Of a stretch of 64,000 bases of DNA, positions 33,126-46,922 are shown piece after piece. Numbering within the stretch: position 1 is the first letter of the stretch; every line of letters starts with the position of its first letter. The DNA lies in NCBI RefSeq assembly GCF_030273445.1, contig NZ_CP120678.1, positions 2,457,501-2,521,500 on the forward strand. The letters are read 5' to 3'. This DNA is from Selenobaculum gibii (lineage in GTDB: Bacteria; Bacillota; Negativicutes; ICN-92133). The translations under genes were made by a program, and so were the position numbers. The notes below the pieces were generated by a model, which worked only from the letters and a program-made list of their open reading frames with translations, ran no database searches and was not told the origin of the DNA.

Positions 33126-34922
33126 ATGGAAAATGTTGCGATATTTAAATATTTATCCACATTCATCTTAGTAGCTTTGATTTTTCTCCTATATAGGAAG
33201 AGCAAAGAAATAGAGAGATTAGAATCCGCGAAAGATGAATTATCAAATATCCAAAAAGATATGGGGCTATACTGTCAAAGAATTAGTGATGATTTATCTT
33301 TAACTTTACAACCCTCGGATGGACTTCTGTCTTTGACTGTTTATACCCCCGAAGATATTCTTCTTAAATTCAACAACCAATTTGCTGAATTAATCCACAC
33401 CAATGATAGACCTAAAGTCCTATCAGCATTTATTGAAGCAAAATCAACCAATCAAAATATCGAGATCAACTTTCGGTTGCGTCATAGAAAACTTAATATT
33501 ATATGGATAAAAAGCATCATTTCTTACTCATTGCAAGAAAAAAATTTTTGTTGTTTGATGGAAGATATTACAAAATACGTAGAATCAAATCAACGCTTAA
33601 AACAAGCTGAAGCGGATATCGAGACTATCACAAATAATATTAGTGGAGGCGTTGCAACTTTTAAATTTGATGATGATTTGACAATCCTGTATGCAAATGA
33701 TCGCTACTATAAAACGATTGGGTATTCCCAAGATGAAGTTTCGGCTATTTACAAGAATAAATCTATTTATTTTATTGCTCCAGATACCATTGAACAACAA
33801 CGTTACGTCATTAAAGAACAAATTAAAGAGAATAAACAACTTACTTTTGAAATGAAAATCTGTAAAAAAGACGGCTCATATCTTTGGCTTAGAGCTACTG
33901 GGCATCTAAAATACAATGCTAACAATGAAGCAATTTTCCCTTGCGTATTAATGGATATTACAAACCTAAAAAAAGCTGAAAATCAATGGCAATTAGAAAA
34001 TGAACGCTATCGCGTTGCAACAGAACTAACCAATGATACAGTCTTTGATTACAACATCATTACAGACACTCTAGTGCATACAAAACAAGATAACAATGCT
34101 TATCCCTGCACCCCAATTATTCCGAACTTTTCTGATAATATTTTCAATCTTCCGTTTATCCATCCAGATGACAAGTCAATTTTAAAAAGTTTTTGTTCCG
34201 ATTTACAATCTGGAAAATCGACTCTGCTTGCCGAACTTAGGCTTTTAGGCGAAAATAATCATTACATCTGGTGTAATATTAAAGGAAAAACGATTTATTC
34301 TGATGACAATATCCCAATTCGAGTGATTGGGAAAATTATTAATATTGATTCACAAAAAAAACAATTAGAGTATTTACGGCAAAAATCACAAAGTGACTCT
34401 TTAACAAACTTGTATAATAAAGCTACAACTCAGGAATTAATTGACCGTTACATCGCCACACATTCACAGAAACAAAATCATGCATTAATGATTATTGACA
34501 TTGATGATTTTAAAGCAATTAATGATACTTGTGGACATTTATTTGGTGATGAAGTTCTAATGCAAGTAACAACACAATTGAAAGCCTTATTTGGTAAGGA
34601 AGATATTGTAGGTCGCATTGGTGGAGATGAGTTTGTTGTCTTTATGGGGAATATCCAATCAATGAGAGATATTCAAGCTAAAGCATCTACCATTAGCCGC
34701 ATCTTTAGAGATACTTGCTATAGAGAAATGCAGCCACTCTCAATCTCTTGCAGCATTGGCATTTCCCTTTATCCAAATGATGGAATGACCTATGTTGAAC
34801 TTCTTAATAACGCAGATAAAGCACTTTATAGCACTAAACACAGCGGGAAAAACAGTTTTTCCGTATTTGATTCACAGGACAATATTGATTATTTTCTTGC
34901 CAGAGATAAAATGAGCTTCTAA
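33126..34922 (+). CDS. Membrane-anchored PAS-GGDEF diguanylate cyclase
   Basis: 598 residues. One N-terminal membrane helix (~8-22) and a coiled coil are followed by about three PAS-type domains (~60-160, ~165-285, ~290-415; WIKSIISY, ILYANDRYYKTIGYSQDEV, LWLRATGHLKYNA) and a GGDEF domain (~425-590). The active site is GRIGGDEFVVF, with the metal-site DIDDFKAINDTCGHLFGDEVL. The I-site RxxD expected five residues before GGDEF reads GKED, so product inhibition is probably lost. It is controlled by the c-di-GMP riboswitch upstream. Confidence 0.93.
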   Translation: MENVAIFKYLSTFILVALIFLLYRKSKEIERLESAKDELSNIQKDMGLYCQRISDDLSLTLQPSDGLLSLTVYTPEDILLKFNNQFAELIHTNDRPKVLSAFIEAKSTNQNIEINFRLRHRKLNIIWIKSIISYSLQEKNFCCLMEDITKYVESNQRLKQAEADIETITNNISGGVATFKFDDDLTILYANDRYYKTIGYSQDEVSAIYKNKSIYFIAPDTIEQQRYVIKEQIKENKQLTFEMKICKKDGSYLWLRATGHLKYNANNEAIFPCVLMDITNLKKAENQWQLENERYRVATELTNDTVFDYNIITDTLVHTKQDNNAYPCTPIIPNFSDNIFNLPFIHPDDKSILKSFCSDLQSGKSTLLAELRLLGENNHYIWCNIKGKTIYSDDNIPIRVIGKIINIDSQKKQLEYLRQKSQSDSLTNLYNKATTQELIDRYIATHSQKQNHALMIIDIDDFKAINDTCGHLFGDEVLMQVTTQLKALFGKEDIVGRIGGDEFVVFMGNIQSMRDIQAKASTISRIFRDTCYREMQPLSISCSIGISLYPNDGMTYVELLNNADKALYSTKHSGKNSFSVFDSQDNIDYFLARDKMSF

Positions 34923-39537: not shown

Positions 39538-40242
39538 CTATCTTACCAAATCTTTTACTACTTCCCCAGCAATAATCAATCCTGCAACAGAAGGAACAAA
39601 CGCTACACTCCCTGGAATCTGTCTTCTATATAGATCAAATTCCTCGGTTTCAAATGGCGTAATTGCAGGCTCCTGTGAGTAAACGACTTTTAATGACGGA
39701 ATTTCCCGCTTACGCAATTCTTTGCGCATGACCTTTGCTAATGGACAAATATTTGTTTTATAAATATCTGTTACCTCAAATTTCGTTGGATCAAGCTTAT
39801 TTCCCGCTCCCATACTGCTAATAATCGGAATGTTTCTTGACTTGCATTGCACAACTAAATCAATTTTCCCTGCTACTGTATCAATTGCATCAACCACATA
39901 ATCATAATTTTCTTGAAAAAAATCTTCTGCCACTTCAGGCAAATAAAACTTTTCTATCGCCGTGACCTCAACGTTTTCATTAATCGCTAAAATACGTTCT
40001 TTCATCACTTCAACTTTTGCTCTACCAATTGTCTCCGTTGTTGCATGCAATTGTCGGTTAAGATTTGATTTTGCAATCGTATCTTTATCAACCAATACAA
40101 GTTTACCTACGCCACTCCGCACCAATCCTTCAACGACATAGCTCCCAACACCGCCAATTCCAAATACAGCCACCTTACTATCATTTAACTTTTTCAACGA
40201 TTCTTTGCCGAGTAATCGCTCCGTACGCGAAAATCTATCCAT
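39538..40242 (-). CDS. tcdA: tRNA threonylcarbamoyladenosine dehydratase
   Basis: About 234 residues of the ThiF/E1-like family. Uses ATP to cyclise t6A37 of tRNA to ct6A. Motifs are the nucleotide loop VFGIGGVGSYVVEGLVRSG, DKDTIAKSNLNRQ, VDAIDTVAGKIDL and the C-terminal VPSVAGLIIAGEVVK. The open frame continues upstream, but the ATG at 40242 (MDRFSRTERLLG) matches the family and has GGTGA 4 nt before it. It lies 19 bp downstream of the large fusion gene and is probably cotranscribed with it. Confidence 0.93.
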   Translation of the reverse strand: MDRFSRTERLLGKESLKKLNDSKVAVFGIGGVGSYVVEGLVRSGVGKLVLVDKDTIAKSNLNRQLHATTETIGRAKVEVMKERILAINENVEVTAIEKFYLPEVAEDFFQENYDYVVDAIDTVAGKIDLVVQCKSRNIPIISSMGAGNKLDPTKFEVTDIYKTNICPLAKVMRKELRKREIPSLKVVYSQEPAITPFETEEFDLYRRQIPGSVAFVPSVAGLIIAGEVVKDLVR

Positions 40243-40261
40243 ACTATCACCTTTACTTTTA

Positions 40262-43200
40262 TCAGTTTGCATTTATCCAAAGCCATTTCAATCGATCCAA
40301 TTGTTCATGCAGTTTCTGGATCAATCGCAATGCGAATTCCGGCTTCGCTTTCATAAAATCACGAATTGCTTCCGCCTTAAATTCTAATATTAACACATCT
40401 TGATTCATTGCCTCAAGCGTAGTCTGTGAAATCGTTACTCCATCCGCTAAGCTCGCACTACCAAAAAAATCTCCATTTTTATAGATTCCTATAGAATTTT
40501 CCCAACCAATCACATTCCTCTTACTACTATCAACAAAGCCATCCCAAATAATGATAAATTTATCGTTAAAATCACCTTCCCAGGCAATGACCTCTGCCGG
40601 TGCATATAATACCTGCTTTCCTTTCTTCGCCAGACTAAATAATTCTGCCGAGTTGAAATCTTGTACGACTGGCAGCTTACTTAAAAATTGGATTCTCTTT
40701 GTTAAGGCGACTTCAACTAAAGCATCAAACACATCTAGATCAACTTCATGCCATTTAAAATTCAATTGTTCCAAATATTTCATCGTCTTTTCAGAGTCAA
40801 TACGATATTGCGTCACTTCCTTCTCCGAAATCCAATCCGATCTTGCAATGATGTTTTCAATATACTCTTTAAACCCTAGCCTACCAAAGTTTTTATATAA
40901 TAAATTTACAAATTCAATATTACTCACTTCTTGTAGTTCCATATGAATTGGTGCAGAATTCAATACATGCCCTAAGTTGATCACCTGCTCACTATGAACA
41001 TGAAAAGTATACTCTTTCTTGCCTTTTCTATTCTGTATTGCTACGATTGCTCGTGCAACATCATCTACACGACTAACCTTAGGATTTACAAAATCTCTAG
41101 GAACAATCCCTATATTTACATAGGCAGAAAACAAATTAAAAAAAGATATCTCCGCTAAATTTTGCGGCAATTTTCCTTTCGGCGCAGGTAATAACAAATC
41201 ACCAATTCGATAGATCGTCACAGAAAGTCCTTCCGCTCTTGCCTTTTCAAGTTCTTTTTCCGCCTGCAATTTTGTTTTAGCATAGTAAAATCTCATCTTT
41301 TGTCCAATATCACTGTCAAACTCATTAAAATGCACCAACAGTTTATCCTTAACATCGCCAGATGCGATAGACAAAGTGGACAGATAAACAACATCAACTA
41401 GATTTTCTATTTTTTTTGCAAACTCAATGAGATTTAATACTGCCTGGACATTTTCTACGTACAAATCCTTGTCGTTATCTAGTGGTATCGCCTGCACAGA
41501 ATTTAAAACCATATCAATATTCTGCGCGAGAAGCTGTGCATCTGCCCGCGATACCCCAAGGTTAGTTTTACATATATCACCCACGATTATGTGAACTCGA
41601 GGCGATTCCAAACAAAGTGTTGCCAAACTTTCACCTAAATAGTAATCTAGAATTCCCTTTATCTTCGCCTTAGCCATCTCTTCTTTTTCTGCTCCCACAA
41701 GAAGATATAACTCACATTTACTCTGATAAAACAGTTCATAAAATATATGTACGCCAACATATTCATCAGCACCAATAAGTAGTACTGCCTTATAGTCATT
41801 TTCTTCATTTTTTGAAAGTTCTTTTGGTACGGAACAATCATTTTTTTTTGCTTGCGCTGTCTTTTTACTACTATCTAGTTTTGGACTTTTCGTTAATCTT
41901 AATTTTATCTTTTGTAAGTGCGCTCTTTCCTTAACCATTGTCAGCCAAGTCGCAGCATCTTTACTATATGAGTTCTCATTTAAGTCTACTTGTCCTTTAT
42001 CTACTTTATTTTCAAATTCTACCTTGCTCCCCAGATCTGCTAGCGCTTGACTTGGCTCATCAATAATTACAGAAATATAGCGTTCAAATGCTTTTAGCCA
42101 ATTTTTTATCGTACTTTGCTTAAATAGCTTATTGTAATAAATAAATCCAATCGTTAAATGACTGCCCAAATCCTGTACCGTAAAAGATAAATCGAACCAA
42201 CTCGTCCTCACTGGGATTAAAAAGGGTATCGTCTCCAAAGCCCCATGCATTTTTGCACCACTATCTGGCAGAAATTCAAAGCTTACATCACAAAGCGGAT
42301 TTCGATCAGCTCGTTGTTGAACCTTGAGCTCCTCTAATAACGTGGTAATAGGATACGACTGATTTAATTTCGCTTCTTCTAAAAGCAAGTAGTTTTTTTC
42401 CAAAAAATCAATAAATGTTATTTTCTTATCAGGATTCGTACGAATTCCATGCATATTTGCAAACATTCCAGGAATATTTATCACATCTTTATACATTCTA
42501 CCTGCAAAAGGAATTCCAATAATAATATCCTCCTGCTGACTTAGTTGCGATAAAAGTCCAGAATATGCGCTAAAAAACAATGCACAAAGCGAAGTTTTCG
42601 TTTCACATACAAAACCTCTAATTTTTTCACTCAATTCCATACTTAAATCAAGACTCGCCTCTGAGCCACTACGATCCATGATTGCAGGACGCATATAATC
42701 CGTTGGCATATTCAATAATGGTAAATCCCCATTCAGCATTTCATGCCAAAACCGTCTGCACTTTTCATAATCTCTTTCATAAAACCGACGTTCCTGCCAT
42801 ACTGCAAAATCATGATAGGTTATCACTGGTTTATCCAGTGATTTACCACAATATAGCTTCATCAGCTCATCAAAAAGTATCATTAGCGAACGGTTATCTA
42901 AAATGCTGTAATGCCCTGCTAAAAATACATAATTTTCAGTTTTCGATACCTCAATTAAACCAAAGGAAAACAATCCCGGTTTATCCGTTTGAAATGGCTT
43001 TAACCAATCATAAATAACATAGGGAATATCCACTTTATTCGCAATAGTTTTAAAAAGTTTTTTATAATGCACTTTCCGCGCAACTTTTTGGTAGCCCCGC
43101 CCATCAACAGCGATAAAATATGTTCGCAAAATCGCATGACGTTCAACCAATTGGTCAAATGCAGCTGCTAACTTCGCTTTATCAAACTCCCCCTTAATGA

Positions 43201-43396
43201 AAAATACTTTTGATACATTATAACGTACTTCATGGTCCACCATTTTTTGCAAAATGTATAGCTGCTGTTGCTCAGGCGTAACGGGATATTTATTATAAGT
43301 AGATGCAACAGGAATTAGAGTGTCCTCACCATAATAAAATTGACTTGCTACATAACCGCTTTTATCATTACAACACCCATTTGATTTTTCCGTCAT
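40262..43396 (-). CDS. Condensation domain / thioester-reductase-like / cyclic-nucleotide-binding fusion
   Basis: About 1044 residues. Residues ~30-460 are a nonribosomal-peptide condensation domain whose HHxxxDG box reads HYSILDN (162-168): the second His is Tyr and the Gly is Asn. A charged linker (~460-545) follows. Residues ~545-890 resemble the NAD(P)-binding thioester reductase domain: the loop is GADEYVG instead of GxxGxxG, while the YxxxK pair (YAKTK) and the Ser in LSTLSIASG remain. Residues ~907-1044 form a Crp-type cyclic-nucleotide-binding barrel (VIAWEGDFNDKFIIIWDG, GIYKNGDFFGSASLADG). No adenylation or carrier domain is present. ATG 43396 is preferred over TTG 43402. Function unknown; a catalytic or a regulatory role are both possible. 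Confidence 0.85.
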   Translation of the reverse strand: MTEKSNGCCNDKSGYVASQFYYGEDTLIPVASTYNKYPVTPEQQQLYILQKMVDHEVRYNVSKVFFIKGEFDKAKLAAAFDQLVERHAILRTYFIAVDGRGYQKVARKVHYKKLFKTIANKVDIPYVIYDWLKPFQTDKPGLFSFGLIEVSKTENYVFLAGHYSILDNRSLMILFDELMKLYCGKSLDKPVITYHDFAVWQERRFYERDYEKCRRFWHEMLNGDLPLLNMPTDYMRPAIMDRSGSEASLDLSMELSEKIRGFVCETKTSLCALFFSAYSGLLSQLSQQEDIIIGIPFAGRMYKDVINIPGMFANMHGIRTNPDKKITFIDFLEKNYLLLEEAKLNQSYPITTLLEELKVQQRADRNPLCDVSFEFLPDSGAKMHGALETIPFLIPVRTSWFDLSFTVQDLGSHLTIGFIYYNKLFKQSTIKNWLKAFERYISVIIDEPSQALADLGSKVEFENKVDKGQVDLNENSYSKDAATWLTMVKERAHLQKIKLRLTKSPKLDSSKKTAQAKKNDCSVPKELSKNEENDYKAVLLIGADEYVGVHIFYELFYQSKCELYLLVGAEKEEMAKAKIKGILDYYLGESLATLCLESPRVHIIVGDICKTNLGVSRADAQLLAQNIDMVLNSVQAIPLDNDKDLYVENVQAVLNLIEFAKKIENLVDVVYLSTLSIASGDVKDKLLVHFNEFDSDIGQKMRFYYAKTKLQAEKELEKARAEGLSVTIYRIGDLLLPAPKGKLPQNLAEISFFNLFSAYVNIGIVPRDFVNPKVSRVDDVARAIVAIQNRKGKKEYTFHVHSEQVINLGHVLNSAPIHMELQEVSNIEFVNLLYKNFGRLGFKEYIENIIARSDWISEKEVTQYRIDSEKTMKYLEQLNFKWHEVDLDVFDALVEVALTKRIQFLSKLPVVQDFNSAELFSLAKKGKQVLYAPAEVIAWEGDFNDKFIIIWDGFVDSSKRNVIGWENSIGIYKNGDFFGSASLADGVTISQTTLEAMNQDVLILEFKAEAIRDFMKAKPEFALRLIQKLHEQLDRLKWLWINAN

Positions 43397-44997: not shown

Positions 44998-46215
44998 CTA
45001 AATAAACGCTCGCGCATCTTGATAATGCTCAAATAAAAGATCTATAATCTGCTTATCCAATCTGCGATACTTTGCCATTTTCCCCATGATATCCTTTACT
45101 TTTTCTTCAGATAGACTTTCTCTATAGGGACGATCTTCTGTCAGCGCCGTAAAAACATCTGCTACAGCTAATATTTTTGATCCTAAAGATAGAGAATCTT
45201 CTGATATACGAAATGGATATCCTGTGCCATCCAACGTTTCATGATGGTAAGCTGCCCATTGAGCAATTTTTTCAAAATTATCAATTCCTTGCAAAATACG
45301 ATAAGTATAATAAGTATGCTGTTTAATCAGTAAATACTCTTCCTCCGTCAACTTCTCTGGCTTTTCTAAAATCTCATTTGGTATCGCTAGTTTTCCCAAG
45401 TCATGCAAAAGGCCTGCAATTCTCATCTCTTTTACCTCAGATGGACTAAAACCTGCTTGTTTTGCTAAATACGCTGCTACTTCGGCAACTCCACGAGAAT
45501 GTTTTGCTGTATATCGACTCGTTTTATCAATAATAATCGAAAAAATATCTGCAATTTCTGTTACATCTTCTAATGTATAAGAGATTGAACCATAGACATC
45601 AAGACTGCTAAAAAATACTTCTTTATAATTTGGATTTATTAGATCTAGCCAAAAGGCTTCTGATTTCGCACATTGATTAAAAGCATCTACCAAATTTGGA
45701 TCAAATGCAGTACCCGATTTCTCATCTACATAATCTAAAATTTTGTTTTTCTGATCGAAAATATATGTACCCGGATAAATAGAAACTTCTATTCTATCCG
45801 CTAAATGGATAATTCGCGAAGCTAATGGAATTTTATCTCCTGCTAATCCAGATGGATTGCCCCCGCACCAATTATCATGATGATATCTAATGGGCTTCGC
45901 TAATTTCTCAAACCGTTTTGATAACAAAAGCAATTCATATCCTTCTTCAGCATGCAAATAAATCCGCTTAGAATTATCATCCATCGTTCTTAGTAATTTT
46001 CGTTCTTCCCAATTGGATACTGCACCAATATCATGAATCAAAGCAGCATAGACAACCTCCTGCCACTTTAACTCCTCCAGCTTCAATTCTTTTGCAATAC
46101 AATCTGCAATAAGCGCCGTCCGCCAATGATGCGTTGACATTCCATTTACCGTTAGCTCAAGTGCCATGGATAAAGACTTCATTAAATTCATAGGGTGAAT
46201 ATCAAAAAAGTGCAC
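44998..46215 (-). CDS. Tandem HD-GYP-type phosphodiesterase
   Basis: About 405 residues with two HD domains. The first (~20-190; HHWRTALIADCIA, ALIHDIG, YHHDNWCGGNPSG) keeps HD but has GNPSG where GYP is expected. The second (~210-400) is canonical: KHSRGVAEVAAYLA, LLHDLGKLAIPNEILEKP and HHETLDGTGYPF. The second domain should hydrolyse c-di-GMP; the first may be regulatory. There is no membrane segment. The open frame begins at TTG 46233, overlapping ung, but GTG 46215 has AAAGGGG 8 nt upstream and is preferred. Confidence 0.87.
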   Translation of the reverse strand: MHFFDIHPMNLMKSLSMALELTVNGMSTHHWRTALIADCIAKELKLEELKWQEVVYAALIHDIGAVSNWEERKLLRTMDDNSKRIYLHAEEGYELLLLSKRFEKLAKPIRYHHDNWCGGNPSGLAGDKIPLASRIIHLADRIEVSIYPGTYIFDQKNKILDYVDEKSGTAFDPNLVDAFNQCAKSEAFWLDLINPNYKEVFFSSLDVYGSISYTLEDVTEIADIFSIIIDKTSRYTAKHSRGVAEVAAYLAKQAGFSPSEVKEMRIAGLLHDLGKLAIPNEILEKPEKLTEEEYLLIKQHTYYTYRILQGIDNFEKIAQWAAYHHETLDGTGYPFRISEDSLSLGSKILAVADVFTALTEDRPYRESLSEEKVKDIMGKMAKYRRLDKQIIDLLFEHYQDARAFI

Positions 46216-46229
46216 CTTTTCAACCCCTT

Positions 46230-46922
46230 TCAAGTATCCGATTGAGGTCTTTCAGGAAGCTGCCAGTCAATCGGTGTTCTGCCATTTTTAATAAGATATG
46301 CATTTGCCTGTGAAAATGGTTTACTACCGAAAAATCCGCGATGGGCCGAAAGAGGACTTGGATGCGGTGATTTTAAAATTAAATGTTTTGAATTTGTAAT
46401 CATAGCTGCTTTTCGCTGGGCAGGACTACCCCACAAAATAAAAACCAGCGGCTCTGAATTTTCATTTAAGAGTTCAATTATACGATCGGTGAAAAACTCC
46501 CAGCCAACACCTTGGTGTGAATTTGCCTGCCGTTCACGAACAGTTAATACCGTGTTTAATAATAATACACCCTGCTTGGCCCACGAAGTCAAACAACCGT
46601 GACTTGGAATTTTGCAATTCAAATCGCTCTTAAGCTCTTTAAATATATTAATTAAGGATGGTGGTGGTTTAACTCCTGGACGCACAGAAAAACTCAAACC
46701 ATGTGCCTGTCCCGCGCCGTGATAAGGATCTTGCCCTAAGATGACAACTTTCGTCTCTTTATATGGAGTATAGTGAAGTGCATTAAAAATATCATACATA
46801 CTCGGGAAAATTCGCTGCTGACGATATTCATCAATTAGAAAAGACCGTAAACTTTTATAATACGGTTTTTCCAATTCTGTATTTAAAAGCTTTGCCCAAT
46901 CATTTTTAAATATTTCTGTCAT
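46230..46922 (-). CDS. ung: Uracil-DNA glycosylase, family 1
   Basis: 230 residues. Excises uracil from DNA. Motifs are the catalytic water-activating loop [18 protein letters not shown], the uracil-binding LLLNTVLTV, and the DNA-intercalation loop [13 protein letters not shown]. The length is typical. The gene lies just upstream of the HD-GYP gene on the same strand and likely shares a transcript. Confidence 0.96.

Follow-up and report, generated by a model that had tools for sequence, protein, structure and literature searches.

A protein encoded within the window (the whole 64,000-nucleotide stretch of DNA that was analysed) combines a condensation (C) domain, a thioester-reductase-like (TR) domain and a C-terminal Crp-type cyclic-nucleotide-binding (CNB) barrel, and is best explained as a retained pseudoenzyme. 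Under this explanation, in which our confidence is slightly better than even, the C-A-T-TR-CNB terminus of a nonribosomal peptide synthetase (NRPS) first lost its adenylation (A) and carrier (T) domains, later its catalytic residues as well, and was kept as a non-catalytic protein, the role of which would probably be regulatory.

The C-TR-CNB gene occupies 40262..43396 on the reverse strand and is a single open frame of 1044-1046 aa with no internal stop or frameshift. The ATG at 43396, which gives 1044 aa, is preceded by gggagcg, an alternative TTG two codons upstream (43402) fits as well, and the TGA stop lies at 40264-40262. A search of the whole genome recovered the same frame once, in a single-contig 2.68 Mb assembly that is 99% complete. 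The next gene (39538..40272, reverse strand, with a likely ATG at 40242, just past the C-TR-CNB stop) is ThiF/MoeB-like (TcdA-like) and is outside the C-TR-CNB system. No biosynthetic genes were present among the window neighbours examined, which encode a dicarboxylate/glutamate symporter, an HD-GYP-like protein, a uracil-DNA glycosylase and 2-oxoacid:ferredoxin oxidoreductase subunits in addition to the TcdA-like protein.

Pfam profiles matched the protein above their curated cut-offs at residues 35-463 (Condensation, 4.9e-81), 542-784 (NAD_binding_4, 2.6e-26) and 930-1016 (cNMP_binding, 2.6e-9), and detected no A or T domain. The C domain (residues 35-463, 42008..43294, reverse strand, PF00668) is predicted to have an intact fold, with the AlphaFold2 model matching solved C domains at Z 33-39. 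The model is good for the C domain and the barrel only, the TR part, obtained by single-sequence modelling, being unusable, and the structure comparison returned C domains only and hence bears on the C fold. The TR domain (residues 538-887, 40736..41785, reverse strand) exceeds the cut-off for PF07993 and scores 118.3 bits (4.3e-34) against TIGR01746, below the curated cut-off of 213.35. The barrel and its C-terminal helix (residues 895-1044, 40265..40714, reverse strand) score 37.4 bits against PF00027, above the cut-off of 27.5, with pLDDT mostly 75-93. By sequence the barrel matches both Crp/Fnr-type barrels and the barrel of family 2B encapsulins (NF041163, far below cut-off), but the window protein has neither a helix-turn-helix nor a capsid fold, there being no DNA-binding domain behind the barrel, and its barrel is instead fused to NRPS domains.

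When 380 genomes of the class were searched, two large NRPS frames in one of them (G493) proved to match window-protein residues 485-1041 and 510-1040, i.e. the TR domain and barrel. One of these NRPSs, of 2616 aa, has the architecture C-A-T-C-A-T-TR-CNB, the second, longer one ends alike, and both have intact motifs. The C-terminal barrel of the window protein aligns with those of the G493 proteins, and identity to them is 30-34% in each of the C, TR and barrel domains. When the window protein was aligned with the last G493 module, the only counterpart of the A and T region was a linker rich in Lys, about 75 residues long and of low pLDDT (residues 464-537, 41786..42007, reverse strand). When the class genomes were searched with a profile built from the TR end and the barrel, the TR-CNB junction was present only in the window's genome and G493. 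No further such junction was found in a sample of 398 phylum genomes, in which the matches outside the class were mostly Crp-size frames along with two frames of about 1000 aa ending in a barrel. An orthologue of the three-domain protein was not found in either set, nor was any relative detected by a pattern plus tblastn scan of genome contigs. The family- and order-level samples contained the window's genome alone, and the comparison rests on the class and phylum.

In a tree of 88 C domains, the window C domain grouped with 33 NRPS C domains (34 rows, SH-aLRT 96), and the window protein had branches roughly double the length of its relatives' branches in both the C and barrel trees. The architecture and the tree, with no intermediate found, make an NRPS terminus from which A and T were lost the most likely ancestor of the window protein. 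The order of its domains is that of the C-A-T-R termination module of the AusA/aureusimine type (TIGR01746; solved R domains 6vtj and 4f6c), with homologous C and TR domains, but the window protein is without A and T, has lost the motifs and carries an added terminal Crp barrel.

Comparison with these relatives revealed changes in all three domains. In the C domain, the HHxxxDG motif of the G493 NRPSs (HHIVLDG/HHIVFDG) reads HYSILDN (H162-Y163-S-I-L-D167-N168; residues 162-168, 42893..42913, reverse strand). In the TR domain, the dinucleotide loop, GATGYLG in the relatives, reads GADEYVG (residues 542-548, 41753..41773, reverse strand), and two further conserved positions are lost, the Arg after strand 2 (VRA/IRG in the relatives, VGA here) and the H-x-AANV motif (HSAANVRHYG in the relatives, NSVQAIP here). 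Among the GxxGxxG loop, the Arg after strand 2 and YxxxK, only the last is kept (Y705-K709, 41270..41284, reverse strand); the Ser/Thr of STLS is likewise kept. The GADEYVG and VGA changes presumably affect NADPH binding, as judged from extended SDR enzymes. In the phosphate-binding cassette of the barrel, FGSASLADGVTISQTT, Glu is replaced by Ser and the Arg is absent. No single motif change proves the window protein inactive: a review cites an active C domain with an HQxxxDM motif (PMC11546977), and stand-alone C domains with a DHxxxDS motif are active (PMC13142362).

The initial annotation, made from the letters of the DNA, had given the limits of the gene, its composition of condensation, reductase-like and Crp-type domains without A or T, the motif readings HYSILDN, GADEYVG and retained YxxxK, and a neighbouring tcdA that does not explain it, all of which agree with the results above. 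Structure prediction, which it proposed, supports the C fold, and its concern that the barrel might be an unrelated fold does not hold, as the profile match identifies a real Crp-type domain. The survey it suggested for the same fusion located the TR-CNB junction elsewhere only at the two G493 NRPS ends. Its further caution, that homologues might split into normal NRPS modules, applies in part: the nearest architecture is an ordinary C-A-T-TR terminus, yet one that bears the barrel.

Profile searches were also used to judge the content of the genome. They recovered one PP-binding carrier, read as the fatty-acid AcpP because of adjoining fabG-like and enoyl-reductase-like frames, one AcpS-size phosphopantetheinyl transferase (AcpS), and AMP-binding matches consisting of one strong match to a CoA-ligase-like protein and two weak ones. 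These searches recognised no NRPS-type A domain, and neither another NRPS protein nor a second match to the window protein was found in the genome. With a single carrier (AcpP), a single AcpS and no other NRPS protein, there is no NRPS assembly line in this genome. It is the combination of the motif losses with this genome content that makes catalysis by the window protein appear unlikely.

The genome search yielded no class III nucleotide cyclase, and because both this enzyme and the phosphate-cassette residues are missing, gating of the window protein by a cyclic nucleotide would be a weak proposition. The barrel may depend on a cyclase of another class, or may bind another ligand such as c-di-GMP. 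The latter is a lead only, arising from the HD-GYP-like gene two genes upstream (window 44998-46233, reverse strand) and from a GGDEF gene (L064:15178-15921) directly behind a G493 NRPS with a TR-CNB end. A PAS-GGDEF protein is encoded in the same window at 33126-34922 (forward strand).

The open frame is an argument for retention. In this gene 6.7% of the possible non-silent single-base changes create a stop, and the chance of no stop is 1e-3 after 100 neutral changes and 1e-6 after 200, frameshifts not counted. About two thirds of the residues of the protein differ from those of its relatives, and the G+C and GC3 of the gene match those of its neighbours. Given the long branches, the gene appears to have evolved fast, yet its frame would have been protected for most of that time. 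Since neutral decay would hardly leave the frame open, the retained pseudoenzyme is the best reading. There is also a precedent, a separate family of C-CNB proteins described below, in which HHxxxDG was lost in nearly all sampled members and the genes are still open in about 110 genomes.

We infer that the A and T domains were deleted from a C-A-T-TR-CNB terminus before the catalytic residues were lost, with subsequent selection for a non-catalytic role. The Crp-type barrel and C-terminal helix would form a dimerising, regulatory module, and the C lobe, possibly with the TR lobe, would keep its fold as a surface for binding acyl-ACP or another partner, with no chemistry. Such a mode would resemble that of the X domains of glycopeptide synthetases, in which a C fold with an altered motif serves partner binding and not condensation (PMC11546977). 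However, the X domain sits inside an NRPS and recruits P450s, whereas the genome of the window protein is without an NRPS. Against the retained-pseudoenzyme reading, no orthologue was found on which selection could be measured, the branches of the protein are long, selection may have been relaxed recently, and the reductase Tyr, Lys and Ser/Thr remain, altered motifs being no proof of inactivity.

A possible but improbable alternative is that the protein is an unselected relic of a lost NRPS cluster in early decay, with its frame still open by chance or owing to a recent loss of function. The degeneracy of all three sites, the absence of any other NRPS part from the genome and the long branches are all consistent with this, as is the presence in the same genome of another decayed protein, a C-CNB pseudogene. 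It is opposed by a frame of 1044 codons that, for all its divergence, contains no stop or frameshift, and by the finding that each domain still keeps 42-52% of the residues common to the two G493 proteins.

Less probable still, and in our view unlikely, is a working stand-alone enzyme, in which the C domain would join an acyl-ACP or acyl-CoA to a free amine, or the TR domain would reduce an acyl-thioester, with the barrel as an allosteric switch. The retained YxxxK, the predicted intact C fold and the presence of AcpP are in keeping with an enzyme, and OaaC-type C domains, which like that of the window protein lie outside any NRPS module, use acyl-ACP in gut bacteria with the non-canonical DHxxxDS motif (PMC13142362). 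In OaaC-type systems, however, the second His is still present and the A and ACP proteins are supplied by the system itself, whereas the window protein has Tyr at this position and Asn for the Gly of the motif, with no cognate A or ACP seen; the paper describing them mentions no cyclic-nucleotide barrel. The TR cofactor site is also altered, at three positions, and no biosynthetic neighbours were seen. The initial annotation had offered two alternatives, a cyclic-nucleotide-gated acyl-transfer or reduction enzyme and a degenerate regulatory protein. The second fits better, and the first is opposed by the loss of the C catalytic His, the TR loop, the Arg and H-x-AANV, by the lack of NRPS carriers and A domains, and by the missing cassette Glu and Arg and class III cyclase.

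The C-CNB family consists of frames of about 620 aa with a condensation domain and a terminal Crp barrel, and no A, T or TR domain (e.g. L097:3283-5256, reverse strand; L112:6534-8399; L130:8001-9854). A 26-member profile matched in 123 of the 380 class genomes; setting aside about a dozen matches that look like ordinary NRPS C domains leaves the family in about 110, including Anaerovibrio, Selenomonas ruminantium, Schwartzia, Quinella and a Massilibacillus MAG. Outside the class, C-domain matches came from Paenibacillus and Bacillus. HHxxxDG is lost in almost all of the members that were examined (VQAVLTN, AQLIADS, PQMIADG), and the confident predicted structure of an S. ruminantium member (mean pLDDT 85, pTM 0.83) has a C part that matches solved C domains. 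One member, in genome G685, keeps the second His (PHITFDG) and sits in an NRPS operon (L206:908-13567) with carrier domains, among them a T-T protein, and an Sfp-like transferase, which suggests that the family was born in an NRPS cluster of this kind. No NCBIfam family reaches its cut-off for the C-CNB proteins, which apparently form a separate, undescribed family.

Like the window protein, the C-CNB proteins combine a motif-lost C domain and a Crp barrel without A or T, but they are without a TR domain. Membership of the window protein in this family was rejected by both trees, the C-CNB clade excluding it in the C-domain tree (99) and in the barrel tree (98/73). Because the window protein falls outside the clade, loss of catalytic residues in C-barrel fusions has occurred at least twice in the class. 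The genome's own C-CNB copy is the pseudogene mentioned above (L096:10480-11046, equivalent to about 878,480-879,050 of G000:C1), with a stop, a frameshift and most of the C domain gone; its gene order is that of the intact Massilibacillus MAG copy, with which its barrel groups.

In Anaerovibrio and several Selenomonas, the C-CNB gene lies near genes for a Cache-HAMP-SpoIIE phosphatase, a STAS protein and an RsbW-like ATPase (L124, L128, L130, L132 and L141). This company is kept while gene order is rearranged, which argues for a functional link, although in a minority of the family and in related genomes. The window protein could by analogy be the output of such a partner switch, an effector possibly replacing the broken C-CNB copy, and this we consider very unlikely. 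It would accord with the several orders in which C-CNB occurs within four genes of SpoIIE/STAS/HATPase_c_2, and with the broken local copy, but the window gene belongs to a different lineage by the C tree and there is no partner-switching gene among the window neighbours examined; replacement of the broken copy is a guess. An assembly error or a chance joining of separate genes, for which no supporting evidence was found, can be practically dismissed, a contig-join artefact being discounted by the same frame on the single-contig, 99% complete assembly and a chance joining by the TR-CNB junction (not that of C and TR) occurring twice more in G493.

NRPS domains have been studied as catalysts. 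If the retained-pseudoenzyme reading is true, a genome that has no NRPS has retained a C domain, together with a reductase, for a non-catalytic role. The fold would then have a new use, one that includes the C-CNB family across rumen Selenomonadaceae, partly tied to partner switching. More tentatively, and with considerable doubt, Negativicutes may at least twice have turned C(-TR)-Crp-barrel fusions into non-catalytic signalling proteins that outlived their synthetase, those of Selenomonas and Anaerovibrio taking the part of a sigma factor in SpoIIE/STAS/RsbW-type switching, and the window protein representing an independent case with a dead reductase. The open-access literature was not found to describe the domain combination of the window protein, nor to contain anything on a condensation domain with partner switching. 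Genome-mining tools may label such genes biosynthetic though no product is made. The TR-CNB ends of the full G493 NRPSs suggest in turn that chain release can be tied to a sensory barrel.

Several other genes were observed beside C-CNB proteins or with comparable barrels. In several Selenomonadaceae MAGs, the gene immediately downstream of C-CNB encodes a GmrSD-type restriction endonuclease (L145:9830-11557 and similar loci). At L213:405-4968, a frame of about 1000 aa, transporter-like by eye, ends in a Crp barrel and lies directly behind a gene whose N-terminus is RsbW-like, also by eye, and in L098 HEAT repeats and a barrel occur together in a frame of 1246 aa.
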